Origin: Opitutaceae bacterium
Lineage (GTDB): Bacteria > Verrucomicrobiota > Verrucomicrobiia > Opitutales > Opitutaceae
NCBI GenBank assembly: GCA_947474995.1
Contig: CANJNJ010000023.1
Location: 1 to 47,190, forward strand
Length of the DNA stretch: 47,190 nucleotides
Direction of reading: 5' to 3'
Of this stretch, positions 3,124 to 36,137 are shown piece after piece (position 1 is the stretch's first letter; each line of letters begins with the position of its first letter). Both the position numbers and the translations under genes were made by a program. Below the pieces are notes generated by a model that had not been told where the DNA came from, did no database searches, and saw only the letters and a program-made list of their open reading frames with translations.

Positions 3124-3154
3124 CGCGACCTTCGCTTTGCCGCTCCCTGGACCC

Positions 3155-18446: not shown

Positions 18447-19570
18447 GCAACGCGGAGATCGCGCGCGAGCGCGGCGTCCCGACTGGGCCGCCAGATATGG
18501 CGGTCAAGAAGGTAGTGTTGCAGCGGAAACCCGAGGAACACGCCCGTCAGCAGTTCGCGCAGGGAAATCTCCCCGAACAGCTGGCGGGTGCTCGTGTGGA
18601 TCACCGGGACGCAGCCTTCGGTGATTTCCAGCGAGCAGCCGAGCAGGCGAAAAACCACCGCCATCGCGAGGCCGCTCGCGAGAAAAGTCGCCAGATTGCG
18701 GGTGACGCGTCCGGTCGCGCCGGACGCCAGTCGGCGGTTGCGATGCCAGAACCACACGATGGCCTGATATTGGAAGTCGTGGTGCACGGTGACAAAAATC
18801 GAATAGGCCAGCAGCGGCGCGACAGCAACTGCGGGGTGAAAGCTTACGAAGGCCTGCACCGGGAGCACCGCGAGCAGGAAAATCAGCTTGGGCCCGTTGA
18901 GCGGCGCCCCCGCACGCCAGCGCCAGATTTGCCGGCCAAACAGCGCCACGGCCGCTCCCGCCGCCACGGCGGCCGTCGCCGCGACGACCGGCGCCGCGGG
19001 CAGCGCCGTGAGACCAAACGCCGTGCGCGCCTCGGGATTTTTCGCCAGAAAGCCAGCCGCCGGGGCGAGGAGCGCGAGATGCATCGCCCACCGATCGATC
19101 GCGCGATCGGCCGGCGCCGTTTCGCCGTTTTTCCGACTGTACAGCGCGAGGATCCCGTAGTGCTGGCGCAGCACGTGCCAGTAGGCCTCGAAGAGAAACC
19201 ACGCGACGAACAATTTCCACGGCCACGCATACCACACAACGCCCGCCCGATGGAGGATGGCGCACACCAATATCGCCAGCGGTCCGGCGAGCAACAGCCC
19301 GCAACTTCCCAGCAGCAGACCGCGCCGGCGCTGCCACTCCTCGCGTTGGAGAAACGTGCGCGAGTAGGTGCCGAAAAAATGCGGGGTATCGATCAGCGTG
19401 ACCCAGACGAACCACACCACGATCAGGTTGGCGCCCCACCCCACCACGAGTGCGCAGAGCAACCACGCCGCCAGCGCCCCGCCGCTCAACCACCACAGGT
19501 CCTCGCGGCGATTGATAATCCACGGCCAGGCCAGGAGGGCGGGCCGGGCAGCCGGCGGCGGCGGATTCAC
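18443..19570 (-). CDS. Unrecognised polytopic membrane protein with conserved His motifs
   Basis: 375 residues, about nine hydrophobic helices. I cannot name the family. Its polar motifs lie at helix ends and are rich in His: DTPHFFGTYSRTFL (about 62-75), AYWHVLRQHYGI (about 130-140), FVTVHHDFQYQAIVWFWHRN (about 265-285) and FPLQHYLLDRHIWR near the C-terminus. Clustered His residues at a membrane face recall di-iron or zinc membrane hydroxylases and desaturases, but the spacing is not the standard HxxxH/HxxHH pattern. It lies between a ceramide-glucosyltransferase-like gene and tolC, with 4-bp overlaps on both sides, so a lipid-modifying or lipid-handling role is inferred. It could be a non-catalytic transporter. 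Confidence 0.75.
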   Translation of the reverse strand: MNPPPPAARPALLAWPWIINRREDLWWLSGGALAAWLLCALVVGWGANLIVVWFVWVTLIDTPHFFGTYSRTFLQREEWQRRRGLLLGSCGLLLAGPLAILVCAILHRAGVVWYAWPWKLFVAWFLFEAYWHVLRQHYGILALYSRKNGETAPADRAIDRWAMHLALLAPAAGFLAKNPEARTAFGLTALPAAPVVAATAAVAAGAAVALFGRQIWRWRAGAPLNGPKLIFLLAVLPVQAFVSFHPAVAVAPLLAYSIFVTVHHDFQYQAIVWFWHRNRRLASGATGRVTRNLATFLASGLAMAVVFRLLGCSLEITEGCVPVIHTSTRQLFGEISLRELLTGVFLGFPLQHYLLDRHIWRPSRDAALARDLRVA

Positions 19571-20772
19571 GATTCGGCGGAGCTGACTCCGCGGGATATT
19601 TCGACGACACGACCGCGACGGTTAAAACGGTAGCGCACCCCCGCCCAGTCAAGGTGGCGGCGGCCGATCGTGGCCAGAAACGACGCGGCCTGGGTGAGCC
19701 GGAGCAACGGCAGCAAAAGAAACATGCGGCGCAGGTTTCGCGTGGGCCCGAGCTGACTATAGAGGCAGACGAGCAGCGCCTCGATCCCCCACCAAAACAG
19801 CGCCGCACCGCCACCCCACGCCAGGAACGACCCGCCCGCACCGGCCGCCAGGATCGCGACCGGCAAGGCCACAACAAGGCAGGCGCCCGCAACGGTTGCG
19901 ACTCCCGCGACCGCCCAGGTGCCGGGCTCGAACGATTTTACATTGAGGAGCTGCCGGGCATACCACGCCGTGGCGGCCCGCACGGTGGGCAAGGCATCGT
20001 CCGTGACCAGGAACACGTCGGCCGTCAGCATCGTCCGCCGACGACGCTCGCGCAAAATGGCCATCAGCCCCATGTCATCCGAAATCGTTTCGCCCCAGAC
20101 CGCGGCCACCCGCCATGTCTCGAATTCCGCCCGGCGCAATGCGAACGACCCGCCCCACAGCCCCGCACCCGCCAGCTGTGCGACCAGGGAGAAATGGGCG
20201 AACATCGTCATGTTCATGAACGTGTGGACCTGCTCGCCCGCCGAACCGCCCGCCGCGACGAGCCAGCGATATCCGGTCGCCACGGCCACGGCCGGGTCCG
20301 AGAGCGGCAGGACGAGGGAGCGCAGCCAGTCGCGGCCGGGTGCCACGTCGTTGTCGCAGAACGCGAGCACCTCCGCGCCGCGCGCCGCCGCCACGCCCGC
20401 CAGCATGTTGTAATTCTGCTGGCTGCACGTGGCCGCCAAACCCGCCACCACCAGCCGCGCCCGCCCGTCACTGCGGGCAATGATTTCGCGGATGATCGGC
20501 AGCCCGGCGTCCGCTTCATCCTCGACCGCAAACAAGACCTCGTAGTCAGGATAGTCGTGCGCGAGATGGGCCCCGAGGTTGGCGGCGAGATTTTTTCCCG
20601 CCCCTTTCGTCGGAATGACGATCGCGCAACGAGGTAGCCAGGCGGGGTTGAGACGCGGCCGAACGAGCCGCGGATAAATCCACCGCTGCCGCAGCCGCGC
20701 GACGAGCGCCGCGGGCACTTCGACCGCCGCCAACGCCGCGGCAGCCAGAGTCAACGCAAGCGCGGCGCTCAT
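19567..20772 (-). CDS. Family 2/21 glycosyltransferase, ceramide-glucosyltransferase-like
   Basis: 401 residues: an N-terminal helix, a GT-A domain (about 45-270) and C-terminal helices. Motifs are AIVIPTKGAGKN (nucleotide site), VLFAVEDEAD, FCDNDVAPGRDWL (DxD-like) and GETISDDMGLM (catalytic acidic region). A canonical QxxRW is not clear; WYARQLLNVK occupies that position. This arrangement, with D-rich strand, ISDD and terminal membrane helices, resembles ceramide glucosyltransferase (GT21) and the related HpnI group. Ceramide as acceptor is inferred from the bCerS gene at the head of the operon. The ATG at 20772 lies one base after the stop of the upstream gene; the frame is open to 20868 but that extension is antisense noise. 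Confidence 0.8.
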   Translation of the reverse strand: MSAALALTLAAAALAAVEVPAALVARLRQRWIYPRLVRPRLNPAWLPRCAIVIPTKGAGKNLAANLGAHLAHDYPDYEVLFAVEDEADAGLPIIREIIARSDGRARLVVAGLAATCSQQNYNMLAGVAAARGAEVLAFCDNDVAPGRDWLRSLVLPLSDPAVAVATGYRWLVAAGGSAGEQVHTFMNMTMFAHFSLVAQLAGAGLWGGSFALRRAEFETWRVAAVWGETISDDMGLMAILRERRRRTMLTADVFLVTDDALPTVRAATAWYARQLLNVKSFEPGTWAVAGVATVAGACLVVALPVAILAAGAGGSFLAWGGGAALFWWGIEALLVCLYSQLGPTRNLRRMFLLLPLLRLTQAASFLATIGRRHLDWAGVRYRFNRRGRVVEISRGVSSAES

Positions 20773-20773
20773 G

Positions 20774-22327
20774 TCACTCGTCGGTGATTGAGGCCAGACT
20801 CGGAACGGACGGGGCCGAATTGGACACCGCAGCCGCCGGACGCGCCTGCCGGCGTCCGGCGAGTTCACGCACCTGCAAAATCAGGATGAACAGGTATCCG
20901 CCACCATAGAAGAACGGCCCAAGGGCCCAGAGCCGGAAATCCTTCGCCCACATTTCGACGCCCAGCCCAGCCAAAGCCACGACGATCAGCGCCTCGAAGC
21001 CCATCGTCCAATCAGCGCGCGCCCGATAGATGCCGCGGGCGGGAAGCGACGCGCCGGCCGGCTTCGGCGTGCGCACAAAAACCCCGGTTTCAGCGCGGAA
21101 AAAGCCTTCCAGCACCGCAAAACTATTGGCGAACCCGAGACCGACCCCGAGCCAGGCCGCCAGCGGAAAATCCAACCACACCCGGCTCCACGGCCCGCGT
21201 TGCACCAACTGCGAGCACACCATGACCACCGGGTAGCACACTCCGAGTGGCGCGAACCACAGCAGCCAATCCGGAAAACCCGGCGTGCCCGGAAACCAAT
21301 AAGGCATCAGCTGGCACACCGGCCAGAGCAGCACAAACGCGAGGAGGAAGAGGTGGAGCGAATAGCCGAGCAGGTGGACGGTCGCGATCACCCGCGATCC
21401 CCAGGAAAACTTCGGGGAACGCCACACCGGGCCGAGGAGTTTGCGCGCACATTGGATCGAGCCCCGCGCCCAGCGGGCCTGCTGGCGTTTGAATGAAAAA
21501 ATATCCTCGGGCAATTCATTGGGCGCGAGCACGTCGCCCTCGTAGGTCGCCTTCCACCCCCGCAGGAAAGCGCGGTAGCTCAGGTCGAGATCCTCCGTCA
21601 GCGTGTCGGCAATCCACCCGCCCGCGTCGTCGATGCAGGCGCGGCGCCAGATGCCGCCCGACCCGTTGAAATTAAACGTCCAGCCCTGCTGGCAGCGCAC
21701 CGGCTGCTCAACGAAGAAGTGCGGATCATGCATCACGGCCTGGGCCCGGGTCAGCAGATTGACATCGCGATTGAGAAAACTCCACCGCGCCTGCACAAAT
21801 CCGACGCGCGAATCGGCGAAGGCCGTCCGCCGCACCAGCAAGGCCATCAGGAAGTCCGGCGCCGGCAGGAAGTCCGCGTCGAACATCGCGACAAACTCGC
21901 CCGTCGCCGACGGCAGCCCCGCCGCGAGCGCTCCAGCCTTGAAGCCGTCCCGCTGTGCCCGGTGCAAGAGCACGATATCGTGGCCCGCCGCCCGCAGTTC
22001 ATCGACGGCCTGCCGGGCGATCGTCGTGGTGTCGTCCGTCGAATCGTCGAGCACATGGATTTGCAGGCGGTCCCGCGGCCACTCCAACCCGGCCAAGGCG
22101 CGAATGCCCCGGTCCGCGACGTAACGCTCGTTGTAGATGGGCAACTGGACCGTCACCCGCGGAAATGCCGCCGGGGACAAAGGAACCGTGCGCGGCGGGG
22201 TCGAACCCAACGTCATGCGCCGGCCCAGCCACAACAGAAACCCCATGTGCGCGCCAAACAGCGAAAGGGCGGCAACCACGACAAGGTACAGGCCAAGTGG
22301 CAGGTGAGACAGCACGAGAAGGGTCAA
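20774..22327 (-). CDS. Cellulose-synthase-like family 2 glycosyltransferase
   Basis: 517 residues. N-terminal helix (about 5-30), GT-A domain and four or more C-terminal helices. Conserved residues: QLPIYNERYVADRGI, VLDDSTDDT (D), AMFDADFLPAPDF (DxD), TEDLDLSYR (TED) and QQARWARGSIQ (QxxRW). These are the four hallmarks of CESA-type beta-glycosyltransferases. The family includes processive polysaccharide synthases and enzymes that glycosylate lipids. With no c-di-GMP PilZ domain and a ceramide-synthase-like gene 4 bp upstream, transfer to a lipid acceptor seems more likely than cellulose synthesis (inference). Confidence 0.88.
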   Translation of the reverse strand: MTLLVLSHLPLGLYLVVVAALSLFGAHMGFLLWLGRRMTLGSTPPRTVPLSPAAFPRVTVQLPIYNERYVADRGIRALAGLEWPRDRLQIHVLDDSTDDTTTIARQAVDELRAAGHDIVLLHRAQRDGFKAGALAAGLPSATGEFVAMFDADFLPAPDFLMALLVRRTAFADSRVGFVQARWSFLNRDVNLLTRAQAVMHDPHFFVEQPVRCQQGWTFNFNGSGGIWRRACIDDAGGWIADTLTEDLDLSYRAFLRGWKATYEGDVLAPNELPEDIFSFKRQQARWARGSIQCARKLLGPVWRSPKFSWGSRVIATVHLLGYSLHLFLLAFVLLWPVCQLMPYWFPGTPGFPDWLLWFAPLGVCYPVVMVCSQLVQRGPWSRVWLDFPLAAWLGVGLGFANSFAVLEGFFRAETGVFVRTPKPAGASLPARGIYRARADWTMGFEALIVVALAGLGVEMWAKDFRLWALGPFFYGGGYLFILILQVRELAGRRQARPAAAVSNSAPSVPSLASITDE

Positions 22328-23490
22328 AAAGGATGTTCGGCGGCCGCTGATGGCGAATCTTTTCTACTGAGTGATTTCTCGTAGAGCCGGAGGGTCTGCA
22401 CCTGCCGGGCGCCGAGCCGCTCGACGCTCGAAATGATCTCGACGTTGTCGTCGAGGACCCACGAAAGCTCCAACAGGGTGGCCCCGCGGCGGCGCAGTTC
22501 CTCCCGGCACCTCGTGATAAAGATCAAAGGAAGGCCCAGCCGCCGATATTGGGGTCTCACGCCCATCATCATGGCTCGATAACGCGTAATTTTCTTTCGC
22601 GCCCGTAACAATTTCCACCAGCCGAGTGGCCACAGGCGTCCGTCGATCGCCTTGATCGGCACATTGAGATCAGGCATCGCCACAAACGCGCCCGCGGGTT
22701 CTCCGCCGACTTCGGCCAGATAGACCAATTCGGGAACCAGAAAGGTTTGGTACCGCTGATAAAGTTCCAAAAACTCCGCCGCACTGATTGGCACATGCCC
22801 CCAGTTATCGTGCCACGCCTCGGCAAAGACTGTCGCCAGGTGACGCGACTCGCGCTCGAGCTGGCGCAGGTCGAGGTTGCGCACCACCACGTCACCCCGC
22901 TGCTCCACGAGCCGGGCCACCCGCATCAAGCGCTCGGCCTGCTCCGGGCGCTCCGTCGCCCAATCCGTGCGATACACCCGCAGGTCGCGACACGGCGCAT
23001 AGCCCGCCTGTTCAAGCAACGTGCGATAATAAGGCGGCGTCCAGGTCATGCCCAGCATCGGCTGGAGATCGAAGGCGTCGAGCAACACGCCCGCCTCCTC
23101 CTGAATGTTGAAGTTGGCCGGACCGCGCGCCCGGTCCAACCCGGCGTGCCGCAACCACTCCTCCGCCACCGCGAGCAGCCGCCGGGCTACGACCGCGTCA
23201 TCGACACACTCGAAAAAACCGAAGAAGCCCGCCCCGTCCGCGTGACTGCGCAGATGCGCCTCATTGCGAAAGGCCGCGATCCGGCCGACGACCCGCCCGT
23301 CCCGCCGGGCGAGCCAGAGCGCACCCGAGTTTCCGGCGCGGAAATACTCCCCCCGCCGCGGATCGAGCTGACGCCGCTGGTCGGCGAGCAGGGGCGGCAC
23401 CCACGCGGGCTGCCCCGCGTGCAGCGCCCACGGCAACCGCATGAATGCGTTCCGCGCGCTGGCCGTTTCAACTGGCTGAATCTCAATCAC
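22324..23490 (-). CDS. GNAT-fold bacterial ceramide synthase-like acyltransferase
   Basis: 388 residues starting at a GTG (23490). The protein has the two-part GNAT layout and signature text of the family that includes Caulobacter bCerS: ADGAGFFGFFECVDD (about 84-98), RGPANFNIQEEAGVLLDAF, PPYYRTLLEQAGYAPCRDLRVYR split by a variable stretch, and a C-terminal GNAT core with MMMGVRPQYRRLGLPLIFI and LELSWVLDDN. bCerS N-acylates a sphingoid or 3-keto base in the cytoplasm or at the inner membrane, and is unrelated to eukaryotic ceramide synthase. Location opposite serine palmitoyltransferase supports the call. It heads the operon that continues through glycosyltransferases and the exporter. A different N-acyltransferase substrate cannot be excluded. 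Confidence 0.78.
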   Translation of the reverse strand: MIEIQPVETASARNAFMRLPWALHAGQPAWVPPLLADQRRQLDPRRGEYFRAGNSGALWLARRDGRVVGRIAAFRNEAHLRSHADGAGFFGFFECVDDAVVARRLLAVAEEWLRHAGLDRARGPANFNIQEEAGVLLDAFDLQPMLGMTWTPPYYRTLLEQAGYAPCRDLRVYRTDWATERPEQAERLMRVARLVEQRGDVVVRNLDLRQLERESRHLATVFAEAWHDNWGHVPISAAEFLELYQRYQTFLVPELVYLAEVGGEPAGAFVAMPDLNVPIKAIDGRLWPLGWWKLLRARKKITRYRAMMMGVRPQYRRLGLPLIFITRCREELRRRGATLLELSWVLDDNVEIISSVERLGARQVQTLRLYEKSLSRKDSPSAAAEHPF

Positions 23491-23565: not shown

Positions 23566-23672
23566 CTCCGCGCTCGCCGCGTCTCCGCGTGACGCGGATT
23601 GGACTGGTTGATTGGAAACGGCCCCACTCCCATGTTTTTTGTCCGCGATTCCACCCCTGTCGAGGGCGATAT
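23566..23672 (+). repeat. Direct repeat copy 1 (partner 24147-24253)
   Basis: This stretch recurs 581 bases downstream with about 80% identity. The shared core includes TTGTCCGCGATTCCAC or TCGTCCGCGATTCCAC followed by GGGCGATAT. It lies in the divergent lipid promoter region. It may be a decayed duplication or copies of a dispersed element. Confidence 0.75.
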
Positions 23673-23862
23673 AATCCCAGCCGCGGTGGGTTAGCGGCTG
23701 TCATGAACTTTGCCCTCTCGTAGTCTCGTTGCCAAGTGGACCGGAGGTCATCTCCGAGAGCTCCTCGACAGGCTGGAAGCCCTGAGCCCGCCGAAGGGGA
23801 AGCGGGACAAGTCGGATCGATTGATCCTTCGCTCCCGGCCTCCCCAGACTGGGTGAAAAATC

Positions 23863-24146: not shown

Positions 24147-24253
24147 CTCCGCGGCTCCGCGCTCTCTGCGTGAGGCGGATTGGGCTGATTGATTGCATAC
24201 GGCACCACTCCCGGATTTTTCGTCCGCGATTCCACGCCGGTCGCGGGCGATAT
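24147..24253 (+). repeat. Direct repeat copy 2 (partner 23566-23672)
   Basis: Second copy of the ~107-bp repeat, at a constant offset of 581 bases. It ends in GGGCGATAT like copy 1. It lies 199 bases before the SPT start codon, so it could belong to that gene's upstream region. Confidence 0.75.
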
Positions 24254-24451
24254 GGCCCCCGCCGCGAAGGACAAACCAGGGCGCATATCGCTTTCTTGCC
24301 CGCGCCGCGGCGGCGCAGGCAGGGGCGTCTCTCCGAGGCATCCTAGCTCGGAAACGGACAACATCTGCAAAAAAGCGAGAGGCGCCCGGCTCATCTGGCC
24401 CGCCCTTAATCGAGTGGACTTTGCGTGCGTCCTGCGCTGAGTGTGCCGCCC

Positions 24452-25696
24452 ATGGGTTCATCTTCCGCCGCTGCGCGCCTGCCCGCCGCTGCCGACGCTT
24501 CCCGGCGCCGAGACGAATTCACCGCATTGCGCAATCTCGACGCTCAAAAGGCCTGGCTGGTGGCCCGCGGGATTCCCAATCCCTATTTCCCGCTGCACGA
24601 GGGCACGGCCGGCGCCCACACCCGAATCGGGGGCCACGACCTGATTAATTTTTCCAGTTACAATTATCTCGGTCTCAACGGCGACCCGGCCGTCAACGAC
24701 GCCGCCAAGGCCGCCATCGACGTGTATGGCACCACCGTTTCCGCAAGCCGAATTGTCTCCGGCGAGCGCCCGCTCCATCGCGAACTCGAGCAACAGCTCG
24801 CGGTTTTCACCGGTACGGAAGACGCCCTCACCTTCGTCAGCGGCCACGGCACCAACGTCACCGTCATCTCCGACCTCGTGGGTCCGGGCGACATCGTGTT
24901 CCACGACGCCGCCATCCACAATTCCGCGCTGCTCGGCGCCAAACTCTCCGGCGCGAAACGCGTTCCTTTTTCCCACAACAAGCCGGAGAAGCTCGCCGGG
25001 CTGCTCGAGCGCCACCGTCCGGCGTACCGCCGGGCGCTGATCCTCGTCGAAGGCGTGTACAGCATGGACGGCGATCCGTGCGACCTGCCCGGTTTTGTCG
25101 CGCTCAAGCGCCAGCACGAGGCCTGGCTCATGGTCGACGAGGCCCACTCGCTCGGCGTGCTCGGCGCCACGGGCCGGGGTGTGCGCGAGCACTTCGGCCT
25201 CGCCGCGGACGAGGTTGATCTGTGGATGGGCACCCTCAGCAAGGCGTTCGCCAGCTGCGGCGGATTTGTCGCGGGCCGGCATTCGCTGATCGAGACGCTG
25301 CGCTACTTCACCCCCGGATTCATGTTTAGCGTTGGCCTGCCGCCGCCGGCGGCAGCCCGCGCCCTGGCGGCGCTGTATAAACTAACCGCCGAACCCGCGC
25401 GGGCCCGCCTCGTGCGGGCCCGCGCCGACCTTTTCCGTGACCTCGCCCGGGAGCACGGTTGGTCAATTGGCCTGAGTCGCGATTCCGCCATCGTGCCCCT
25501 CATCGTCGGCAACTCGGAAAAGGCCCTGCGCCTCTCCGCCGCCCTCATGGCCGCGGGCATCAATGTGCAGCCCATCGTCTATCCGGGTGTGGCGCACCGG
25601 CAGGCGCGCCTGCGGTTTTTCTTTTGCTGCGATCACACCGAGGCGGAGATTCGTCAGGCGGCGTCCGCCGTCACGGACGCGTTGCGCCAGCTCTGA
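24452..25696 (+). CDS. spt: Serine palmitoyltransferase-like alpha-oxoamine synthase
   Basis: 414 residues, PLP-dependent fold type I, full length for the family. Motifs: NFSSYNYLGLNGDP (about 66-79), YGTTVSASRIVSGERPLHRE, SGHGTN (130-135), EGVYSMDGD, MVDEAHS (D229, H232) and TLSKAFASCGG with the PLP lysine K264. Alpha-oxoamine synthases condense an amino acid with an acyl thioester. The GTTVSASR..SGE.PLHRELE text, the DES1-like gene overlapping its stop, and the nearby ACP and bCerS point to sphingoid-base formation rather than BioF (biotin) or KBL. The acyl donor may be acyl-ACP, as proposed for Caulobacter. ATG 24452 is preferred to GTG 24425. It is the first gene of a four-gene plus-strand operon, divergent from bCerS. 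Confidence 0.88.
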   Translation: MGSSSAAARLPAAADASRRRDEFTALRNLDAQKAWLVARGIPNPYFPLHEGTAGAHTRIGGHDLINFSSYNYLGLNGDPAVNDAAKAAIDVYGTTVSASRIVSGERPLHRELEQQLAVFTGTEDALTFVSGHGTNVTVISDLVGPGDIVFHDAAIHNSALLGAKLSGAKRVPFSHNKPEKLAGLLERHRPAYRRALILVEGVYSMDGDPCDLPGFVALKRQHEAWLMVDEAHSLGVLGATGRGVREHFGLAADEVDLWMGTLSKAFASCGGFVAGRHSLIETLRYFTPGFMFSVGLPPPAAARALAALYKLTAEPARARLVRARADLFRDLAREHGWSIGLSRDSAIVPLIVGNSEKALRLSAALMAAGINVQPIVYPGVAHRQARLRFFFCCDHTEAEIRQAASAVTDALRQL

Positions 25697-26673
25697 TGCC
25701 AATGCCCGGAGGTTTCTTCCAGAGCGACGAAGAAGAACCGCACCGTGCCCGCCGGCGCTCCATCCTCGTGGCCCATCCCGAGGTGCGCCAGCTCTTCGGA
25801 CGCAATCCCTGGACGGCCGTGGTGCTCGCGGGGATTCTGGCGCTGCAGACCGGCCTGGCCGTCCTGTTCGGGCGACTCGGCTGGTCGTGGTGGTGGCTGA
25901 GCGCGCTGGTGGCCTATGCGGTCGGCGCGTTTGCCAACCATTGCCTCTACGTCGTCGTCCACGAGGCCTGCCACCTGCTGGTGTTTCGAAACCGCACCCT
26001 CAACCGGCTGACGGGCCTCCTCGCCGACTTGCCCAACGTTTTTCCCGGCTCGATGGGTTTCAGCGTTTACCACCTCAAGCATCATACGCATCAAGGCGAC
26101 CACACGCAGGACGGCGATCTGCCGAGCCACTGGGAAGCGCACCTCGTCGGCCATCGCTGGTATGCGAAGGCCGCCTGGCTGGCCCTTATGCCCATCGTGC
26201 TCATGCTCCGCCCTTCGCGGGTCGGCGTCGCCCAGATGATCTCCCCATGGTGGCTGGCCAACGTGGCGCTCTGCCTCGCCTACGATCTCGCGCTGGTGTA
26301 TTTCTTCGGTGGGGGCGCGCTGGGGTATCTGCTGTTTTCGTTCTTTTTTTCGATCGGATTGCACCCGCTGGGCGCCCGCTGGATTCAGGAGCATTACACC
26401 TGCGATCCTGACCATGAAACCACGAGCTACTATGGCCCAGCCAACTGGCTGACGCTCAATGTCGGCTACCACAATGAGCATCATGATTTCCCTTCCGTTC
26501 CGTGGCACCGGCTGCCGCGCCTGCGCACCCTTGCGCCGGAGTTCTATGATCGGCAGCCCGCTGAAACTTCGTGGACGAAGGTGCTGCTCCGCTTCATCTT
26601 CGATCCGCGCTACAGCCTCTACTCCCGTGTCGAACGTCCGCCCGGGGCTGAGCCCGCGGCAACGATCGGCTAA
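25696..26673 (+). CDS. Sphingolipid delta-4 desaturase (DES1/DEGS-like)
   Basis: 325 residues, almost the length of human DEGS1 (323 in my recollection). Three His boxes are intact: HEACH (89-93), HLKHH (126-130) and HNEHH (259-263), plus QEHY (H233). Beyond the generic fatty-acid-desaturase boxes, DES1-specific text is retained: N-terminal RRRSILVAHPEVRQLF, GLHPLGARWIQEHY, HETTSYYGPANWLTLNVGYH followed by EHHDFPSVP, then LAPEFYDRQP, SWTKVL and the end SLYSRVER. Eukaryotic DES1 introduces the 4,5 trans double bond of ceramide and some members 4-hydroxylate. It is a polytopic diiron enzyme needing an electron donor, not encoded here. The start codon overlaps the SPT stop by one base (TGATG), so the two are translationally coupled. 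Confidence 0.9.
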   Translation: MPMPGGFFQSDEEEPHRARRRSILVAHPEVRQLFGRNPWTAVVLAGILALQTGLAVLFGRLGWSWWWLSALVAYAVGAFANHCLYVVVHEACHLLVFRNRTLNRLTGLLADLPNVFPGSMGFSVYHLKHHTHQGDHTQDGDLPSHWEAHLVGHRWYAKAAWLALMPIVLMLRPSRVGVAQMISPWWLANVALCLAYDLALVYFFGGGALGYLLFSFFFSIGLHPLGARWIQEHYTCDPDHETTSYYGPANWLTLNVGYHNEHHDFPSVPWHRLPRLRTLAPEFYDRQPAETSWTKVLLRFIFDPRYSLYSRVERPPGAEPAATIG

Positions 26674-26739: not shown

Positions 26740-27105
26740 ATGAACACCCCCGCGCCCGACCTCCGTCTGCAAAACGCCCGGGAATGGTTGCGCGGCTATC
26801 CTCCCGGCACCCTCGAGGCGGCCGAAGACTTTTTCCTCGACCGCGGCGCGACGGCCTTGGACCGCCTCGTCGATGGCGTGCTGATGCACTTTCTGCCCCC
26901 GCGCCCCGAGCGGCCACCCTTCGCGCAAATCGACCCCACGGCCCATTTGGTCCGAGATCTGGGTCTCGACTCAATCGCGATGGTTGAGCTGACCTACTTG
27001 TTGGACGTCGTGGTGGGCCTTAAGTTTTCCGACGATGAACTGCGGGGCATCGTCACGCTTGGCGACCTCCACCGCGCCGTGCAGCAAAAACGAGCGAGCC
27101 GATAG
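26740..27105 (+). CDS. Acyl carrier protein with N-terminal extension
   Basis: 121 residues. The C-terminal ~75 residues form an ACP with the phosphopantetheine site DLGLDSIAMVEL (Ser78). The first ~40 residues are an extra helical or unstructured extension absent from housekeeping AcpP (about 78 residues). A dedicated ACP sits next to SPT in Caulobacter-type sphingolipid loci, where it supplies the acyl donor; the same role is inferred here, possibly together with the adjacent ketosynthase. It starts 66 bp after the desaturase and ends 7 bp before the ketosynthase start. Confidence 0.88.
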   Translation: MNTPAPDLRLQNAREWLRGYPPGTLEAAEDFFLDRGATALDRLVDGVLMHFLPPRPERPPFAQIDPTAHLVRDLGLDSIAMVELTYLLDVVVGLKFSDDELRGIVTLGDLHRAVQQKRASR

Positions 27106-27112
27106 AGCCGTC

Positions 27113-28366
27113 ATGCCTCCCCGCGTTGTCGTTACCGGACTCGGATTCATTACGCCGATCGGCAATGACCGCGCCGCCGTCGCCGCCAGCCTCAGCGAAC
27201 TGCGCCACGGACTCAGCCCCGTCGCGTGGTTTCCAGACTGCTCGATCAAAGTGGCGGGCACGATCAGAGATTTCTCTCTGACGGACCTCAATCAGGCCGG
27301 TTGGACGTGGCCCGCCGCCTACTCCCTTCCACGCGAAACCCTCCGCGGTCTTTCGCCCCACGGGGTCTATGCGTTCTGCGCCGTCGAGCAGGCCCTGCGC
27401 GAAAGCGGACTCACGTCCGCGCAACTCGGTGACGGCAACACCGGCCTTTTCTGCGCCTCCGCGGGCTCGCCGCGCTACCTCTGTCATCACATGGCGGAGC
27501 TCCCGGCGAGCCGCGGCGCCCGGATCAATCCGTGGGGGGTGGTGCGGACCATCGCCGGCACGCTGAATTTCAACCTCTCCGCCCACTACGGCATCCGCGG
27601 CGCTGTAGCCGGCTTTTCCTCCGCCTGCGCTGCGAGCGGCCAGGCGCTCGGCTATGCCCGCGACGAAATTGCCCTCGGTCGCCACCGACGAATGATCGTC
27701 GTCGGCGCCGAGGAGCCCACGTGGGAATCACTGCTGCCCTTTGTCGGCTTGCGGGCCCTCTCTCGCCAGGCCGACCCGATTCTCGCCTCACGTCCCTTTG
27801 ATGCGCAACGCGACGGTTTCGTGGGGTCCGGTGGCGCGGTTGCGGTGGTGCTGGAGTCCGAGGAATGTGCGCGAGCCCGCGGCGCCCCTCTCCTGGCTGA
27901 ATTCGCTGGCTGGGGTCAGTCGGCCGACGGCTATAGCGTGGCTCAATCGGAGCCCAACGGGCTGGGGATCGAAACCGCGATGCGGCAAGCCCTCCGCTCC
28001 TCCGGCGCCGAAGCCGCGGAAATCGACTACGTCAACGCCCATGCCACCAGCACGCCTGTCGGCGATCGCGCCGAAGCGCGGGCGCTGCTGCGCGTCTTCG
28101 GACCGGATGGCCCGCCCGTGAGTAGCACCAAGGCCCTGACCGGCCATCCGCTTTCCATGTCCGCCGTGCTGGAAGCCGCGCTCTGCACGGTTGCCATCCA
28201 GGAGTCGTTCATTCCCGGCCAGGCTCACCTCGGCGAGGTCGAACCCGAGTTCACGCAATTGCGCCTGCCCCGGCAAACCGTTGCCCAGGAGCTGCACACG
28301 GTGCTTTCGAACAGTAGCGGATTCGGCGGCAGCAACGTGGCGCTGGTCCTGCGGGCGATTCGCTAG
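27113..28366 (+). CDS. Beta-ketoacyl-ACP synthase (FabF/FabB-like)
   Basis: 417 residues with the thiolase fold: VVVTGLGFITPIGN at the N-terminus, nucleophile C172 in SSACAASGQ, H310 in NAHATSTPVGD and H345 in KALTGHPLSMS, so the Cys-His-His triad is complete. The third motif reads GHPLSMS rather than the usual GHTLGAS. It is divergent from housekeeping FabF and probably elongates or primes the acyl chain on the adjacent ACP for SPT or bCerS (inference). ATG 27113 lies 8 bases after the ACP stop; the upstream extension is ACP sequence in another frame. Confidence 0.88.
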   Translation: MPPRVVVTGLGFITPIGNDRAAVAASLSELRHGLSPVAWFPDCSIKVAGTIRDFSLTDLNQAGWTWPAAYSLPRETLRGLSPHGVYAFCAVEQALRESGLTSAQLGDGNTGLFCASAGSPRYLCHHMAELPASRGARINPWGVVRTIAGTLNFNLSAHYGIRGAVAGFSSACAASGQALGYARDEIALGRHRRMIVVGAEEPTWESLLPFVGLRALSRQADPILASRPFDAQRDGFVGSGGAVAVVLESEECARARGAPLLAEFAGWGQSADGYSVAQSEPNGLGIETAMRQALRSSGAEAAEIDYVNAHATSTPVGDRAEARALLRVFGPDGPPVSSTKALTGHPLSMSAVLEAALCTVAIQESFIPGQAHLGEVEPEFTQLRLPRQTVAQELHTVLSNSSGFGGSNVALVLRAIR

Positions 28367-29765: not shown

Positions 29766-30860
29766 ATGCCGCCTTCTCATCCAATTCCGTCGCTCGGTTA
29801 TTGCGCTCGTTTTCTTCGCCGAGCGCTGACCGTGGTCACCATCGGGCTCGCTGCCTCGGTCGGATTTTCCCAGCAGAGCTACCGGGGCTTTTATGCCGGT
29901 TCCCTCGTCTTCGGCGGCAACATCGGCTTTTACGTCAACGCCAATAGCGACGTGACCGTGATCGTGATCGATCCGCTCTCGAATTCCTTCGGCGCGGACA
30001 CCACGGTCAAAATCACTCCGACGGGCTCGTTCACCGGGACTTTTTCCGACACCACGATCACCGGCCAGATCGCCGCCAACGGCAGCGTCACCGGCACCGT
30101 GGCGCCGGTGGGGATCTCTTTCACCGCGCGGCGCGCGCCGCTGTCCGGCCCGACCCTGGCGTACGAGGGATTTTATCAAGGCTGGGTAACGACACCGGAA
30201 AACCGCCAGGTCGCCACGAGTCTCGCCGTCTCCGCCGACGGTCAGCTCTCCCTGTTCATCCAGGCTGGCGGTCAAGTGGTCGACGCCGGCTATGGCACGA
30301 TCGATTCGAGCGGCAGCTTTAGCGTGAAAGATTCGCGCGGCCGCGTTTCCGCCGGGAGCATCGGCACGACCGCCGGCGGGCTGGCGTGGAACGGCAAGTT
30401 TACGAAGACCGGCGTCGGCGCCTACACCTTCATCGTCGGCCGCCGCACGGCCGCGAACAAACTCATCAACATTTCCACCCGGGGCAAGGTCGAGACCGGC
30501 GACGGCGTCATGACGGTGGGCTTCGCCATCGACGGCGGCGCCAAGACCGTGCTCCTCCGCGGTCTCGGGCCGGGGCTCGCGCTGTTCAACGTCGCGAACA
30601 CCCTTGTCGATCCCCAATTGGCCCTCTACTTCGCCGGCCAGATTATCGCCACCAACGACAACTGGGGCAATGCGGCGGCGACCACGACCGCGGCGGAAAT
30701 CACCGCTGTCACCACGCGCATTGGTGCGTTTGCCCTCACGCCCAACAGTCTGGACGCCGTGCTCCTCATGCGCCTGGAGCCGGGTTCCTACAGTGCCCAA
30801 TTGAGCGGAGCGAATGGTGGCACGGGCTTCGGCCTTATCGAGGTCTGGGAAGTTCAATAA
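29766..30860 (+). CDS. Secreted repeat protein of Opitutaceae type
   Basis: 364 residues with a hydrophobic signal region (about 17-35). The first half repeats beta-strand units of the form YRGFYAGSLVFGG / YEGFYQGWVTT. The second half is a domain common in Verrucomicrobiota secreted proteins: KLINISTRGKVETGDGVMTVGF, AIDGGAKTVLLRGLGPGLA and NDNWG, where the family usually has 'LINISTRG...GDNVLIGGF...ND NWG'. Function unknown; probably an extracellular beta-sandwich. A long antisense frame across this gene is a GC artefact. Confidence 0.8.
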   Translation: MPPSHPIPSLGYCARFLRRALTVVTIGLAASVGFSQQSYRGFYAGSLVFGGNIGFYVNANSDVTVIVIDPLSNSFGADTTVKITPTGSFTGTFSDTTITGQIAANGSVTGTVAPVGISFTARRAPLSGPTLAYEGFYQGWVTTPENRQVATSLAVSADGQLSLFIQAGGQVVDAGYGTIDSSGSFSVKDSRGRVSAGSIGTTAGGLAWNGKFTKTGVGAYTFIVGRRTAANKLINISTRGKVETGDGVMTVGFAIDGGAKTVLLRGLGPGLALFNVANTLVDPQLALYFAGQIIATNDNWGNAAATTTAAEITAVTTRIGAFALTPNSLDAVLLMRLEPGSYSAQLSGANGGTGFGLIEVWEVQ

Positions 30861-30882
30861 CCGGCACGCGCCGTTCCGCCCT

Positions 30883-31659
30883 GTGCGCCCGAACCCTGCC
30901 CCGCTCCCGCTTTCGCCGGCGCAAATCGCCGAATTCGACACCGCGGGATTTGTTGTCCTGCGCGGATTCTTTTCGACCGGGGAAATCGCCCGCGTCGGCG
31001 AAGCCATCGCCGCCCTCGCCGCGCGCCCGCCGTCGGTCGGCCGCGAGATGGTGTATTTCGAGGACAGTGTACGGGATCCGGCCGTGCGCGTGCTCTCGCG
31101 CATCGAGAAATTCATCGAGCACGAGCCAACGCTCCGCGAGCTAGTGCTGGATCCTAGGCTCAGCCTCGCCGCCGGCCAGCTCCTCCGCGACGAGGCCCGG
31201 CTGTTCAAGGAAAAGATCAATTTCAAAATGCCCGGGGGCCGGGGATTTGAGCCGCATCAGGACATCCAGCCGGGCTGGGATGCCTACGCCGACTATTTTC
31301 TCTCGGTGCTCGTCACGATTGATCCCAGCATCCCGGAAAACGGCTGCCTCGAAGTCTCCGCGGGGCATCACCAACGCGGTCTCCTCGGCGAAAAATGGCA
31401 ACCGCTCACGCCCGCGCAGCTCCGCGGCGTCGAGTTTGTGCGCCTCCCCACCATGCCGGGCGACGTCGTGTTCTTCGACTGCTTCGTGCCGCACCAGTCC
31501 GCGCCCAATCTCACCGACCGGCCGCGGCGGAATCTCTATCTCTCCTACAACCGCGCCGCCGCCGGCGATCACCGGGAGAAATATTTCGCCGACAAGCGCG
31601 CGGCGTTTCCGCCCGATCACGAGCGCGCCCCGGACGTGAAGCTCGCGTTCAAGGTTTGA
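30883..31659 (+). CDS. PhyH-family Fe(II)/2-oxoglutarate dioxygenase
   Basis: 258 residues from a GTG at 30883, 23 bases after the previous stop; the frame also opens at 30814 inside that gene. The double-stranded beta-helix has the iron triad H125-x-D127 (FEPHQDIQPGWD) and H204 (VPHQSAPN), with R215/R216 available for 2-oxoglutarate. ENGCLEVSAGHH is the family's middle motif. PhyH enzymes hydroxylate small lipids and, in the PhnY group, 2-aminoethylphosphonate at C1. The gene is 526 bp from the end of the AEP operon, so AEP, an AEP lipid or the ceramide chain are all plausible substrates. Which one is not decidable from sequence. Confidence 0.82.
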   Translation: MRPNPAPLPLSPAQIAEFDTAGFVVLRGFFSTGEIARVGEAIAALAARPPSVGREMVYFEDSVRDPAVRVLSRIEKFIEHEPTLRELVLDPRLSLAAGQLLRDEARLFKEKINFKMPGGRGFEPHQDIQPGWDAYADYFLSVLVTIDPSIPENGCLEVSAGHHQRGLLGEKWQPLTPAQLRGVEFVRLPTMPGDVVFFDCFVPHQSAPNLTDRPRRNLYLSYNRAAAGDHREKYFADKRAAFPPDHERAPDVKLAFKV

Positions 31660-32185: not shown

Positions 32186-33370
32186 TTATTCCGCTCTGAC
32201 CCCGAGCGGCGCGACGCCCAGCTCGCACATGAGCCGGAGCGCGACGTCAGCGGGCGTAATCTTCGGCCGCCCGAGATTCGGCAGCGCCCCGCGTCGGATG
32301 CGAAAGTGCAGCAGCGTGGGGCCGCTCGCCGTCGTGTGCGCCTCGAGTTGCCGGCCCAGTTCACCGATGGCATCGGAGCCCGCCGCCTGCGCATAACCGC
32401 ACGCCTGCGCGATGGCTCCGAAGGAAACGCCGCGACTCACCGTCGCTTGTCCGCCCGTCGAATCGTGCACCTCGTTGTCGAGCACGAGGTGAAAGAAATT
32501 CCGCGGCGCACACGCCCCGACCGAGGCAAAATTGCCCATCCGCATGAGCGCGGCCCCGTCGCCGTCCACGACAAAAACGCGGCGCGCCGGCTGCCGCAGG
32601 GCCAGCCCCAGCGCGAAGGAACTCGCCGAACCCATCGATCCCACCAGATAGAGGTGATTGGCCGCATCACTCAGCGTGTAAAGCTCTCGGCCGGTGAAGC
32701 CGGTGGTCGCCACCACGATGTCCCCGGGGCGCTTTGCCGCCAGCAACGCCCGCAGCGCCTCCGCCCGCGTCGCCCGGTTCGCCGTCGCCAGCGGTAGGTT
32801 TTCGGAAAACGAAAACCCGCGGGCGCCCAGCGCGGTTCCCGCCCGCGCGGAGCGCAAGGGCTGTTCCGCCACCGCCCCGTGCGGCATCACGAAAGCGTAC
32901 GGCCGGGCGTGCCGACGGAAATGCTCGAGCGCCCGATCGAGCGCGGGCCCGATCTCCGCCGTCGTCCCGGGAAACGGCGCCCACGGAATCCGCAGGGTCT
33001 CGAGCAACGCCGGGGTAATCTCGCCCATCAGCTCGTGCTGGGGTTCGTCGGGCGGCCCCCCGGGTTGCGCCCGGTGCGTGACCACCAGAAGCGCCGGGAG
33101 GCGAAACGGCCAGTTGAGCGACGTCAGCGTATTCACCGCATTCCCGAGCCCGGAATTCTGAAACATCACCACCCCCGGTGCGCCGGTCGCCACATACGAG
33201 CCGGCCGCGAGGGCCACCGCATCACCCTCATTGGTCGCATCGCGAAAAAACAGCGCCGGATCGTCGATCGCCGCATTGATGAGCGGCTGCAAATACGAAC
33301 ACGGCGTGCCGGTGAAAAAATCCCAGCCCCGCGCCCGGCAGGCGGATAGAAAATCGGCGGCGGTAATCAT
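32186..33370 (-). CDS. aepY: Phosphonopyruvate decarboxylase
   Basis: 394 residues, a TPP enzyme. The catalytic Glu lies in ATNEGDAVALAAG (E48), and the TPP/Mg site is FVVDGDGAALMRMGNF followed by VLDNEVHDSTGGQ. The short length and GFTGRELYTL / GSMGSASSFALGLAL segments are typical of phosphonopyruvate decarboxylase (AepY/Ppd) and not of acetolactate synthase. It makes the AEP route irreversible by converting phosphonopyruvate to phosphonoacetaldehyde. ATG 33370 lies 14 bases after the PEP mutase stop. It is the last gene of the minus-strand phosphonate operon. Confidence 0.92.
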   Translation of the reverse strand: MITAADFLSACRARGWDFFTGTPCSYLQPLINAAIDDPALFFRDATNEGDAVALAAGSYVATGAPGVVMFQNSGLGNAVNTLTSLNWPFRLPALLVVTHRAQPGGPPDEPQHELMGEITPALLETLRIPWAPFPGTTAEIGPALDRALEHFRRHARPYAFVMPHGAVAEQPLRSARAGTALGARGFSFSENLPLATANRATRAEALRALLAAKRPGDIVVATTGFTGRELYTLSDAANHLYLVGSMGSASSFALGLALRQPARRVFVVDGDGAALMRMGNFASVGACAPRNFFHLVLDNEVHDSTGGQATVSRGVSFGAIAQACGYAQAAGSDAIGELGRQLEAHTTASGPTLLHFRIRRGALPNLGRPKITPADVALRLMCELGVAPLGVRAE

Positions 33371-33384
33371 GACGGCAACCTCGG

Positions 33385-35016
33385 TTAAAACCGCTGCGCG
33401 AGGTTCAGGTCGACGAGTGAATCCACGTCGATCCAATGACCCTGCACGTAGTGGATGCGCACACCGCGGCCCGTCGCGACGAAGTGGTTCAACAGGTCCG
33501 TCATTTGCAACCGCGCCAGGTCGCCGGCCGCGCGGCGCGCGACCACATAGTCGCGGGCCCAACCGAGCCCCGCGGCCGAAAGTTTCAACAATCCGATCCA
33601 TTCGCCGTGGAATTCGTCGCGCGGTTCGGCCACCTCGGCGTGCTCGAGCCGCACGTCGTCGTCGAGAAAATCCCGCGGCGACGGCGGCCGGGAAGCGCGC
33701 ACGTAGTCCGAGGCATGCGGCGCCCGGCCATCCTCACGGAAACGGGAATCGACCGCGATCACGATGTCCGCGGGATCGCGGAGCAACAGGGTAGCGATGA
33801 AACCGCGAAAGAGAATATCGCCAAAAGCGACGAGGGTGTCCGCCCCGTCCGACGCCGCCGGATCGGCCAGCGCGACGGCCAGCGAGGCCAGTTCCCCCGT
33901 CGTCGCGTAATCATCGTTGTCGACCCGCCGCACCCCGGGCAGTTCGACGAGCTCCTTCTTGTAGCCGGCCACCACGGTGATTCCCGTCACTTCCTGCTGG
34001 CGCAGCGTCGTGACGAGCCGTTCGAGAATCGTGGTCGCGCCGATTTTCAACAACGTCTTTGGCCGATCGGCCGTCAGCGGTCCGAGCGCCTCGCCGCGCG
34101 TCGCGGCGAGAATAATCGCCTGGGCGCCGTGCGGGCCGCCGCACCGGTAGCGCCGTTCGGCGTCCTGCAGCTCGGCGTCGCCCTGCAGGCGAAAAATCTC
34201 CCCGAGCGGCGCAATCTCGTCCTCGAGGCCGGCCACCGATTCCTCGCGGCGAATCCGCGCGGCGTTTTCCTGCATGGCCCGCACGCTGGCCCGGAGCTGG
34301 TGATTCGCCCAGATGACCGCGGCCACCCCGTGCTCCCGAAACGCCGCCGTGGGCGTGGCATAGTATTTGGTCGGGATCAGCACGACCGGCAGCCGGCCGG
34401 CCCATTCCCGCAGGAAGGCAAACACCTCGTCGGGCCGGGGTGACTTGCTGTGGACAATCACCGCGTGCGCCCCGGCGCGACGATAGGCTTCGGCCCGGCG
34501 CAGGGCCTCCTCCAGCCCGCGGCCGGCGATCAACGCCTCGGTGCGGGCGATGAGCACAAAGTCGTCGTCGCGCCGCGCATCGAGCGCCGCCTTGATCTTG
34601 CCGCAAAATTCCTCGGCATCCGCCAGCGGCTGCTGCTCGCCGCGGAGAAAGCTGTTCGTCTTGGGAAAGAGCTTGTCCTCGATGCAAAGCCCCGCGACGC
34701 CGCGCTGTTCACACTTGGTCACGAAGCGCCGGAGGGTATTGAAGTCGCCGTGACCGGTGTCGCCGTCGAGGAGAATGGGCACGCCGGTCGCATCGGTCAT
34801 GAACTCCACCTGCTCCAGCACCTGCGTCCACGTGGCCTCGTTGTTGTCGCGCACGCCGAGTGCCGCCGCGAGCGTGAGCCCGCTCGCCCACACGCCGGGA
34901 AACCCGGCCTCTTCCGCGATCCGCGCCGAGACGGCGTTGTGCGCTTCCAGCAGAAACTCGAGCGAGCCGGAACCGAGGAGCCCGCGGAGGCGGGTGGTTT
35001 TACGGGGTGTCGTCAT
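33385..35016 (-). CDS. aepX: PEP mutase fused to a nucleotidyltransferase domain
   Basis: 543 residues in two parts. Residues 1-290 are a phosphoenolpyruvate mutase with the diagnostic EDKLFPKTNSF loop (E113-D114-K115...P118-K119-x-N121-S122) and LLDGDTGHGD metal ligands (D84, D86). Residues from about 300 form a nucleotidyltransferase: QAIILAATRGEALGPLTADRPKTLLKIG, YKKELVELPGVRRVDNDDYATTGE split over the sheet, and a C-terminal IDVDSLVDLNLA. The GxGxR glycine loop is replaced by ATRGEALG, a form I recall in other PepM fusions. PEP mutase starts C-P bond synthesis. The start overlaps the transaminase stop by 4 bp. Confidence 0.92.
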   Translation of the reverse strand: MTTPRKTTRLRGLLGSGSLEFLLEAHNAVSARIAEEAGFPGVWASGLTLAAALGVRDNNEATWTQVLEQVEFMTDATGVPILLDGDTGHGDFNTLRRFVTKCEQRGVAGLCIEDKLFPKTNSFLRGEQQPLADAEEFCGKIKAALDARRDDDFVLIARTEALIAGRGLEEALRRAEAYRRAGAHAVIVHSKSPRPDEVFAFLREWAGRLPVVLIPTKYYATPTAAFREHGVAAVIWANHQLRASVRAMQENAARIRREESVAGLEDEIAPLGEIFRLQGDAELQDAERRYRCGGPHGAQAIILAATRGEALGPLTADRPKTLLKIGATTILERLVTTLRQQEVTGITVVAGYKKELVELPGVRRVDNDDYATTGELASLAVALADPAASDGADTLVAFGDILFRGFIATLLLRDPADIVIAVDSRFREDGRAPHASDYVRASRPPSPRDFLDDDVRLEHAEVAEPRDEFHGEWIGLLKLSAAGLGWARDYVVARRAAGDLARLQMTDLLNHFVATGRGVRIHYVQGHWIDVDSLVDLNLAQRF

Positions 35017-36137
35017 GGAGCCGGCGCGGCGCTGACGATTCCGCGGGCGCGGAGAAAATCGGCGAGATGGCGCAGGAAAAGTTCGAGGTCCGCGGGGGTC
35101 AGGTCTCCGAGATTGGCGACGCGAAAGGAGCGCAGGCCGGGAATCTTTCCCGGGTACACCGTGAGGTCGCGCGCGTAGAGATAATCGTGCATCGCGTCGA
35201 AACTCCACGCCGGGTGCGCGGGCTCGAGAAACGCGGTGAGCAGTCGCGATTGCCAGCGGTCCGGCACCAGGCAGGCAAAGCCGAGCCGGCGCATGCCGGC
35301 CAGCAGCACGGCATGGCACGCCGCATACCGCGCGTGCCGGGCGGCGGCGCCTTCGGCAAAAAATTCGTCCAGGGCGGCATCGAGCGCGTGCAGCACCTGC
35401 ACCGGGGGGGTATAGAGAAACTGCCCTTGCTCCTCCTGCGTCCGCCATTGCCCGGGCAAATTGAGATAGAGGCTCCGGCGCGGGCGGGCGGCCGCCTGGA
35501 GAAGCAGTTCGCGCCGCACGATCGCGAAGCTGAGGCCGGGCAGCCCCTGCAGGCATTTATTGGCGGAACTCACCACGCAGTCGGCGGGCGTCGCGCGCAA
35601 GTCGAGCGGCACACCGCCGAGGGATGACATGGCGTCGATGATCGTCACGACGCCTCGCGCGCGGCAGGCGGCGACCACGGCCTCGAGCGGATTGAGCATC
35701 CCGGTCGTGGTCTCATGATGGACGAGAAAACAGTGGGTCGCCGCGGGCGCTGCTCCGAGGGCGGTCTCGACCGCGGCGGCCGCCGGAAATTCGCCCCAAC
35801 CCAGGGACAGGGTGCGGTGCGGCAGGGCATGCGCCTCGGCAATCTCGCCGGCGCGACGACCGTAGGCCCCGTTCTCAATGACGAGCAGTTGATCGCCGGC
35901 GCCGACCAGCGACGATAAGGCGGCTTCGACGGCCAGCGTGCCGGAGCCGGCCAGCAGCACCACCGTGTGCGTCGACTCGCCGTGGACCGTCGCGAGGAGT
36001 TTGCGGCGCACCGCCGCGAGGAGTTCGCCGAACTCACGCTCCCGCGGACAAAGATCGGGCATGAGCAGCGCCTGCTTCACCCGCTCGCTGGTGGTGCAGG
36101 GGCCGGGGTTAAGGAGAATCTTACGCGGCACCGGCAT
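35013..36137 (-). CDS. phnW: 2-Aminoethylphosphonate-pyruvate transaminase
   Basis: 374 residues, class V PLP aminotransferase. N-terminus KILLNPGPCTTSERVKQAL, GSGTLAVEAALSSL, HHETTTGMLNP, DAMSSLGG (D168) and the PLP lysine in SSANKCLQGLPG (K194) match PhnW. Alongside PEP mutase and the decarboxylase it acts in the biosynthetic direction, turning phosphonoacetaldehyde into 2-aminoethylphosphonate with an amino donor. There is no phosphonatase or C-P lyase nearby, so degradation is unlikely. Overlaps the nucleotidyltransferase end by 17 bp and aepX by 4 bp. Other class V aminotransferases, such as serine-glyoxylate, fit less well. Confidence 0.92.
   Translation of the reverse strand: MPVPRKILLNPGPCTTSERVKQALLMPDLCPREREFGELLAAVRRKLLATVHGESTHTVVLLAGSGTLAVEAALSSLVGAGDQLLVIENGAYGRRAGEIAEAHALPHRTLSLGWGEFPAAAAVETALGAAPAATHCFLVHHETTTGMLNPLEAVVAACRARGVVTIIDAMSSLGGVPLDLRATPADCVVSSANKCLQGLPGLSFAIVRRELLLQAAARPRRSLYLNLPGQWRTQEEQGQFLYTPPVQVLHALDAALDEFFAEGAAARHARYAACHAVLLAGMRRLGFACLVPDRWQSRLLTAFLEPAHPAWSFDAMHDYLYARDLTVYPGKIPGLRSFRVANLGDLTPADLELFLRHLADFLRARGIVSAAPAP

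Follow-up and report, generated by a model that had tools for sequence, protein, structure and literature searches.

A DES1-family desaturase gene beside a serine-palmitoyltransferase-like gene in an Opitutaceae genome: a candidate enzyme for C4 desaturation of bacterial ceramides

Does a bacterium that carries a gene of the sphingolipid desaturase family DES1 owe it to a eukaryote, and could it make sphingosine-type ceramides with it? We have analysed a stretch of 47,190 nucleotides from an Opitutaceae bacterium (the window, contig CANJNJ010000023.1 of assembly GCA_947474995.1) in which such a gene, here called DES, follows a gene for an alpha-oxoamine synthase (AOS) that resembles serine palmitoyltransferase (SPT). 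A first, sequence-only reading of this DNA had described DES as a eukaryote-type delta-4 desaturase in a bacterial sphingolipid operon. In our best reading DES would desaturate (or hydroxylate) the dihydroceramide of bacteria at C4, the sequence not separating Δ4 desaturation from C4 hydroxylation. This reading is carried by domains above their cut-offs, by the homology of a neighbouring acyltransferase to YghO and by the recurrence, in two groups of bacteria, of DES together with SPT-like and YghO-like genes.

A DES1-family protein and its nearest kin

The open reading frame (ORF) of DES translates without an internal stop, and every DES1 motif quoted in the sequence-only reading is present in the translation. 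The profile search proposed there finds both domains above their cut-offs: Lipid_DES (PF08557) at 45.9 bits (cut-off 23) in the Pfam scan of the window ORF, and at 49.6 bits in a search of the genome, and FA_desaturase (PF00487) at 106 bits (cut-off 29.7). Judged by these Pfam models and by its histidine boxes, in which H89, H93, H126, H129, H130, H259, H262 and H263 are the same in all 37 bacterial homologues aligned, the protein is a member of the DES1 family. It has both domains, the histidine boxes and a GYHNEHHDFP block in common with the dihydroceramide Δ4-desaturase DES1/DEGS1, and it groups with DES1 apart from other desaturases, aligning over nearly full length to bacterial and eukaryotic DES, whereas of seven other membrane desaturases six align over 14-93 columns only and one over 231 columns (28%). 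As far as can be told from sequence, it differs from DES1/DEGS1 in standing in a bacterial operon, in having bacteria as the nearest kin found and in its start. A Met-Gly start that can be N-myristoylated is a feature of mammalian DES1; DES begins with MPMPGG (Met-Pro) and lacks this signal, which is not expected in bacteria.

An AlphaFold model made from the alignment of 37 has a mean pLDDT of 85.6. Foldseek with this model places AlkB third (E 5e-3) and SCD1 fourth (E 3.7e-2), both of which we take to be membrane di-iron enzymes, behind two chains of an FtsHi-motor complex (E 3.3e-5 and 2e-4). By sequence, the single DES protein matched no solved structure and its profile gave only two irrelevant matches (E 0.24-0.25). 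The codon-position GC of the gene (0.67/0.46/0.79) is similar to that of its neighbours. PF08557 was found at a single place in the 5.24 Mb, 261-contig genome and was absent from all 14 control genomes; FA_desaturase was found at two places in the genome, the second of which, on contig C21, is a different protein.

The description "eukaryote-type" found no support in the comparison with other bacteria. For the DES tree we took 54 of 83 loci (L014-L096), picked for spread, plus L119 and L122. DES is 49.5-59% identical to these numerous bacterial homologues, against 36.5% to a eukaryotic-looking sequence (L013) and 36.6% over 309 columns to a sequence taken as human DEGS1, on which the near-equal length of the two proteins also rests. 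Kinship to the bacterial homologues is clear by identity. The ingroup tree has 58 rows. In it both eukaryotic sequences join L094, from Bacteroidota (support 99/92), then Ignavibacteriota (90/61), and a 12-row group that holds both of them (100/99) leaves out the window row, which has a branch 0.88 long and no well-supported group of its own. This placement is not proven, since forcing the window and the eukaryotes into one clade costs 11.2 log-likelihood units and is not rejected by the approximately unbiased (AU) test (p 0.126). The root of the tree is unreliable because the outgroup is too distant, with very long branches.

Recurrence beside SPT-like genes

A scan of bacterial and archaeal genome contigs confirmed at least 540 relatives of DES among 593 stretches. 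We kept the best-scoring 80, a sample which leans toward the window sequence, with family membership decided by identity and alignment and not by PF08557. By record title they comprise 28 Verrucomicrobiota, 24 Pseudomonadota, 17 Bacteroidota, 10 Ignavibacteriota and 1 Acidobacteriota, although titles are fallible, as one "Acidobacteria" record falls among Verrucomicrobiota in the DES tree. An AOS/SPT-like gene (any AOS homologue at E ≤ 1e-6) lies in the flank of 45 of the 80 loci, in 43 of them within 1.7 kb. The 45 are 23 of the 28 loci from Verrucomicrobiota, 21 of the 24 from Pseudomonadota (including Alphaproteobacteria, among them Methylocapsa and Methylocella strains) and the one from Acidobacteriota. 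Chance would give about 0.018 AOS matches per 21 kb (64 matches in 76.5 Mb of 19 DES-bearing genomes), but the DES loci are interrelated, and a binomial significance of the linkage is therefore overstated. On some contigs the flank is too short for a neighbour to be seen; 20 of the 35 unlinked loci had at least 6 kb on each side. A YghO-like gene is found in the flank of 37 of the 80. The sphingolipid context claimed in the sequence-only reading is borne out by this linkage, recurring in Verrucomicrobiota and Alphaproteobacteria, together with the divergent YghO homologue of the window itself.

AOS homologues were found with the window AOS in all 19 DES-bearing genomes searched, which alone does not demonstrate an SPT, because the family includes BioF, Kbl and 5-aminolevulinate synthase. 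With the NCBIfam SPT models, the AOS of a Saprospiraceae genome passes (681 bits, cut-off 640), while those of an Ignavibacteriales and a Bacteroidetes genome reach 498 and 487 bits against the same cut-off.

Close to the window organism, DES is rare. Among the 57 nearest genomes (its own included) 7 match the protein at E ≤ 0.001, only its own over full length; the other six match over short stretches within residues 201-320 (E 1.5e-5 to 2.9e-4). Lipid_DES occurs in 5 of 387 genomes of the phylum sample, again counting its own, and one of these matches (G392) looks, by reading of the sequence, like a eukaryotic contaminant, because its DES and AOS frames are broken by intron-like sequence. 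The contig concerned (C10, locus L013), seemingly eukaryotic in a bacterial bin, has its DES and AOS/SPT-like genes ca. 8 kb apart. Of 199 genomes in the order to which Beijerinckia sp. L45 belongs, 9 match, 8 of them over the cut-off. Two scans of viral contigs gave no relative of DES, and plasmids gave no tblastn match.

The window locus and related clusters

The features of the locus are collected in Table 1. The start of DES overlaps the stop of the AOS gene, as had been read from the letters: the ATG (25696-25698) and the TGA (25694-25696) share one base. Calling this neighbour a serine palmitoyltransferase went a step too far. Its product is 34% identical to E. coli BL21 spt, and "SPT-like" stands; the label SPT proper is inferred from gene context, because the protein passes no NCBIfam SPT cut-off (nor any for BioF), whereas E. 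coli spt does (599 bits, cut-off 500). In the AOS tree the window protein forms a clade (support 100/100) with 12 AOS rows from Alphaproteobacteria, of which nine belong to DES loci and three are unlinked. This clade is separate from the DES-linked AOS of Verrucomicrobiota and also from the group holding E. coli spt. Five of the six same-genus AOS loci (L141-L145) were missed by the motif filter and are not in this tree; the sixth (L146), on a branch 5.3 long, was probably misread and supports no conclusion. The genome has a second AOS gene (L129, 8676-9872, minus strand, contig C31), for which the best NCBIfam model is SPT (385 bits, cut-off 640).

Table 1. Genes and repeats of the locus, with positions in the window.
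Feature	Position	Strand	Basis
Glycosyltransferase family 21-like (GT21)	19567..20868	-	PF13506 47 bits (cut-off 21.7); best NCBIfam HpnI 100.5, below cut-off 310
Family-2 glycosyltransferase (GT2)	20774..22327	-	Pfam; overlaps acyltransferase stop; homologues beside DES in Beijerinckiaceae-type loci
GNAT-type acyltransferase, YghO homologue	22324..23490	-	32% over 391 columns, E 6e-67 to E. coli BL21 YghO
Direct repeat, 104 nt (83%)	23582-23685, 24163-24266		between divergent acyltransferase and SPT-like AOS
AOS, SPT-like	24425..25696	+	Aminotran_1_2 (Pfam)
DES1-family sphingolipid desaturase (DES)	25696..26673	+	325 aa; Lipid_DES and FA_desaturase; three histidine boxes
Acyl carrier protein (ACP; PP-binding)	26740..27105	+	25.2 bits (cut-off 20.8)
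Beta-ketoacyl synthase (KAS), FabF-like	27035..28366 (ORF; start by reading probably near 27113)	+	Pfam, NCBIfam
PhyH-type oxygenase, possible lipid/head-group hydroxylase	30814..31659	+	PF05721 89 bits
Three tandem direct repeats, 101 nt	31762-32064		between PhyH and phosphonate genes; second 92%, third 86% versus first
Phosphonopyruvate decarboxylase	32186..33601	-	TIGR03297 391 bits (cut-off 312.5)
Phosphoenolpyruvate mutase with C-terminal NTP-transferase domain	33385..35556 (true start inside ORF)	-	TIGR02320 350.3 bits (cut-off 319.55); PF12804 50.8 bits
2-aminoethylphosphonate aminotransferase	35013..36137	-	TIGR03301 415 bits (cut-off 360.8)
NTP-transferase-like protein	36121..36909	-	PF12804 59.5 bits

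Upstream, the acyltransferase diverges from the AOS-DES pair at a distance of 0.9 kb and is homologous over its full length to YghO, which the literature describes as a bacterial ceramide synthase (bCerS). GT21 is presumably the family of ceramide glucosyltransferases. At 5.5-10 kb downstream of DES lie genes for aminoethylphosphonate (AEP; 32186-36909, minus strand), and their nearness to the ceramide genes makes a phosphonolipid head-group pathway possible. An AEP head group is a guess, because no CDP-alcohol phosphotransferase was found among the 29 window ORFs scanned against Pfam.

PMC9386255 gives yghO (aca), spt, epi, an ACP and an acyl-ACP synthetase as dihydroceramide genes of Rhodobacteria. 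Compared to the ceramide genes of Caulobacter and E. coli BL21 as named there (spt, acpR, aasR, epi/cerR, aca/yghO), the window shares the YghO-type acyltransferase, the SPT-like AOS and an ACP, but this ACP is not alignable, no clear CerR was found, and a desaturase, a KAS and glycosyltransferases are extra. In E. coli BL21 five adjacent genes were found, namely yghO, spt and those for a fatty acyl-AMP ligase, an epimerase-family protein and an ACP. One weak match to the epimerase in the genome of the window organism (33%, E 2e-11) was rejected as a CerR candidate; its neighbour reads as OleC-like.

Similar clusters exist in Beijerinckiaceae-type bacteria (Methylocapsa, Methylocella and others), where five loci (L063, L068, L071 and L084 from Beijerinckiaceae and L092 from a Hyphomicrobiales record) have the same set of AOS, YghO-like, DES, GT2 and KAS homologues as the window, the AOS of L063 being cut by the contig end. 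Their gene order is different and they are devoid of homologues of the window AEP genes. In Methylocapsa acidiphila B2 (L083) an AOS, a YghO-like ORF (34% to the window acyltransferase, without a Pfam match of its own), DES, a GT21 gene (166 bits) and an FA_hydroxylase gene follow in a row, and in the alphaproteobacterial loci L045, L048, L050, L052 and L059 the AOS immediately precedes DES, like in the window. Another arrangement is found in Udaeobacter-like Verrucomicrobiota (L016 8465-13993, L015, L020 and relatives), with DES, an FA_hydroxylase-like gene, an SPT-like gene, a CDP-alcohol phosphotransferase and a YghO-like gene in this order, a candidate pathway for a hydroxylated, unsaturated phosphosphingolipid.

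Relatives of the same genus bear on how the pair may have arrived. The acyltransferase has a match in 8 of the 57 nearest genomes, its own included. In one same-genus genome (G008, locus L139) the acyltransferase (74%), KAS (72%) and ACP (58% over 110 residues) are all recognizable, and between ACP and acyltransferase stands a gene for myo-inositol-phosphate synthase, at the place that SPT-DES takes in the window; in the 19.5 kb examined there, nothing matches the window AOS or DES. In a second (G023, locus L140) the acyltransferase (55%) is beside a PAP2_3 protein, with a myo-inositol-phosphate synthase nearby and a PhyH gene (65%) within a few kb. These are candidate inositol-sphingolipid loci, and the locus may serve sphingolipids with another head group in such relatives. 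The lineage of the window organism probably gained the SPT-DES pair for itself, by local exchange or insertion, two relatives being a thin basis for this.

What DES may do, and what it would mean

We believe that DES is probably a membrane di-iron enzyme acting on C4-C5 of a bacterial (dihydro)ceramide or of its 3-keto precursor. The AOS would condense a fatty acyl thioester, probably borne by the operon's own ACP, which the KAS would feed, with an amino acid (probably serine) to give a 3-keto base; the YghO-type acyltransferase would N-acylate this product, the 3-keto group would be reduced by a reductase not found at the locus, and DES would put a trans double bond at C4, after which the clustered glycosyltransferases, or an AEP-derived head group, may complete the lipid. 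Activity, substrate, order of steps and head group are what we infer from the genes.

Several observations weigh against this proposal. The window AOS stays below the NCBIfam SPT cut-offs (292.9/640, 279.5/500 and 226.4/670 bits), the DES-linked AOS of L083, L052 and L016 likewise fail them, and the AOS homologues counted beside DES are not proven SPTs; the best AOS of a Phreatobacter genome is in fact a 5-aminolevulinate synthase (659/339 bits). None of the 17 Bacteroidota and 10 Ignavibacteriota DES loci has an SPT-like gene in its flank. The window ACP gives no alignment to the sphingolipid ACP of E. coli BL21, and with the BL21 epimerase as query no clear CerR-type reductase was found in the genome. 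The Foldseek E values for AlkB and SCD1 exceed 0.001. Besides, reduction is periplasmic in the Caulobacter model, according to PMC11087976, and if so a desaturase that faces the cytoplasm would either encounter the keto form or depend on flipping of the lipid.

The DES1 family includes C4-hydroxylases, and an alternative that we consider distinctly less probable, although it deserves to be taken seriously, is that DES is mainly such an enzyme (DEGS2-like or bifunctional) and leads to phytosphingosine-type bases. Histidine boxes do not tell a hydroxylase from a desaturase, and a separate FA_hydroxylase-like gene in 27 of the 28 Verrucomicrobiota DES loci makes hydroxylated ceramides plausible. 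However, where such a gene adjoins DES a second hydroxylase would be partly redundant (the target positions may differ), and the window locus itself has no FA_hydroxylase homologue. It is rather unlikely that DES acts on some other amide- or keto-linked lipid made by the AOS, GNAT and KAS genes, not a true sphingolipid: the failure of the AOS against the SPT models, an ACP unlike the sphingolipid ACP of E. coli and the unusual acyl chain suggested by ACP plus KAS would fit this, but the YghO homology of the acyltransferase and the recurrence with SPT-like genes in two groups speak for a sphingolipid. A contaminating or chimeric contig, with the gene coming from another organism, we regard as very improbable; the assembly is in 261 contigs and none of the 28 other relatives searched matches a large protein encoded in the flank (2987-5551), but the genes that flank SPT-DES have their counterparts in a same-genus genome. 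Eukaryotic contamination of the window contig is not favoured. Least probable of all is a recent transfer of DES from a eukaryote, for although DES1 is best known from eukaryotes and the AU test leaves room for it, identity is far higher to bacteria, in the best tree the eukaryotes branch elsewhere, set apart by a 100/99 split, and the AOS-DES arrangement is shared with Alphaproteobacteria.

Coming back to the C4 chemistry proposed for DES, the literature has claims of unsaturated sphingolipids in bacteria. PMC12724326 (2025) describes bacterial sphingolipids as generally simple, largely for want of complex glycosyltransferases and desaturases, and also reports a d18:1/24:1 ceramide in Sphingobacterium detergens; PMC10626005 refers to earlier claims of sphingosine bases in Bacteroides, and PMC8895605 to claimed cyanobacterial sphingomyelin- and cerebroside-type ceramides, without genetic basis. 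Our search, made on titles and the opening lines of abstracts and without most subscription papers or the Caulobacter ceramide paper, found no report of a bacterial DES1-type gene. Unsaturated bacterial sphingolipids have been claimed before, with no gene for them in the literature so covered.

Much more tentatively, Δ4-ceramide could be a widespread bacterial trait, with DES1 having diversified in bacteria beside genes for SPT-like enzymes and ceramide synthases, and with a bacterial branch near the Bacteroidota and Ignavibacteriota sequences as the source of the dihydroceramide desaturase of eukaryotes; the window product would then maybe be a Δ4-ceramide with a glycosyl or aminoethylphosphonate head. 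DES1-family relatives are found in several bacterial phyla (at least 540 stretches, with titles known for 80), many of them beside SPT-like, ceramide-synthase-like and glycosyltransferase genes, and some are in named strains of Methylocapsa and Methylocella, which makes bacterial sphingosine-type lipids testable in cultured strains. If these enzymes are active, a sphingosine-type ceramide would no longer mark a eukaryote, bacteria could be a source of d18:1 lipids in lipidomes from the environment or from microbiomes, and it would become possible to test where the eukaryotic enzyme came from.

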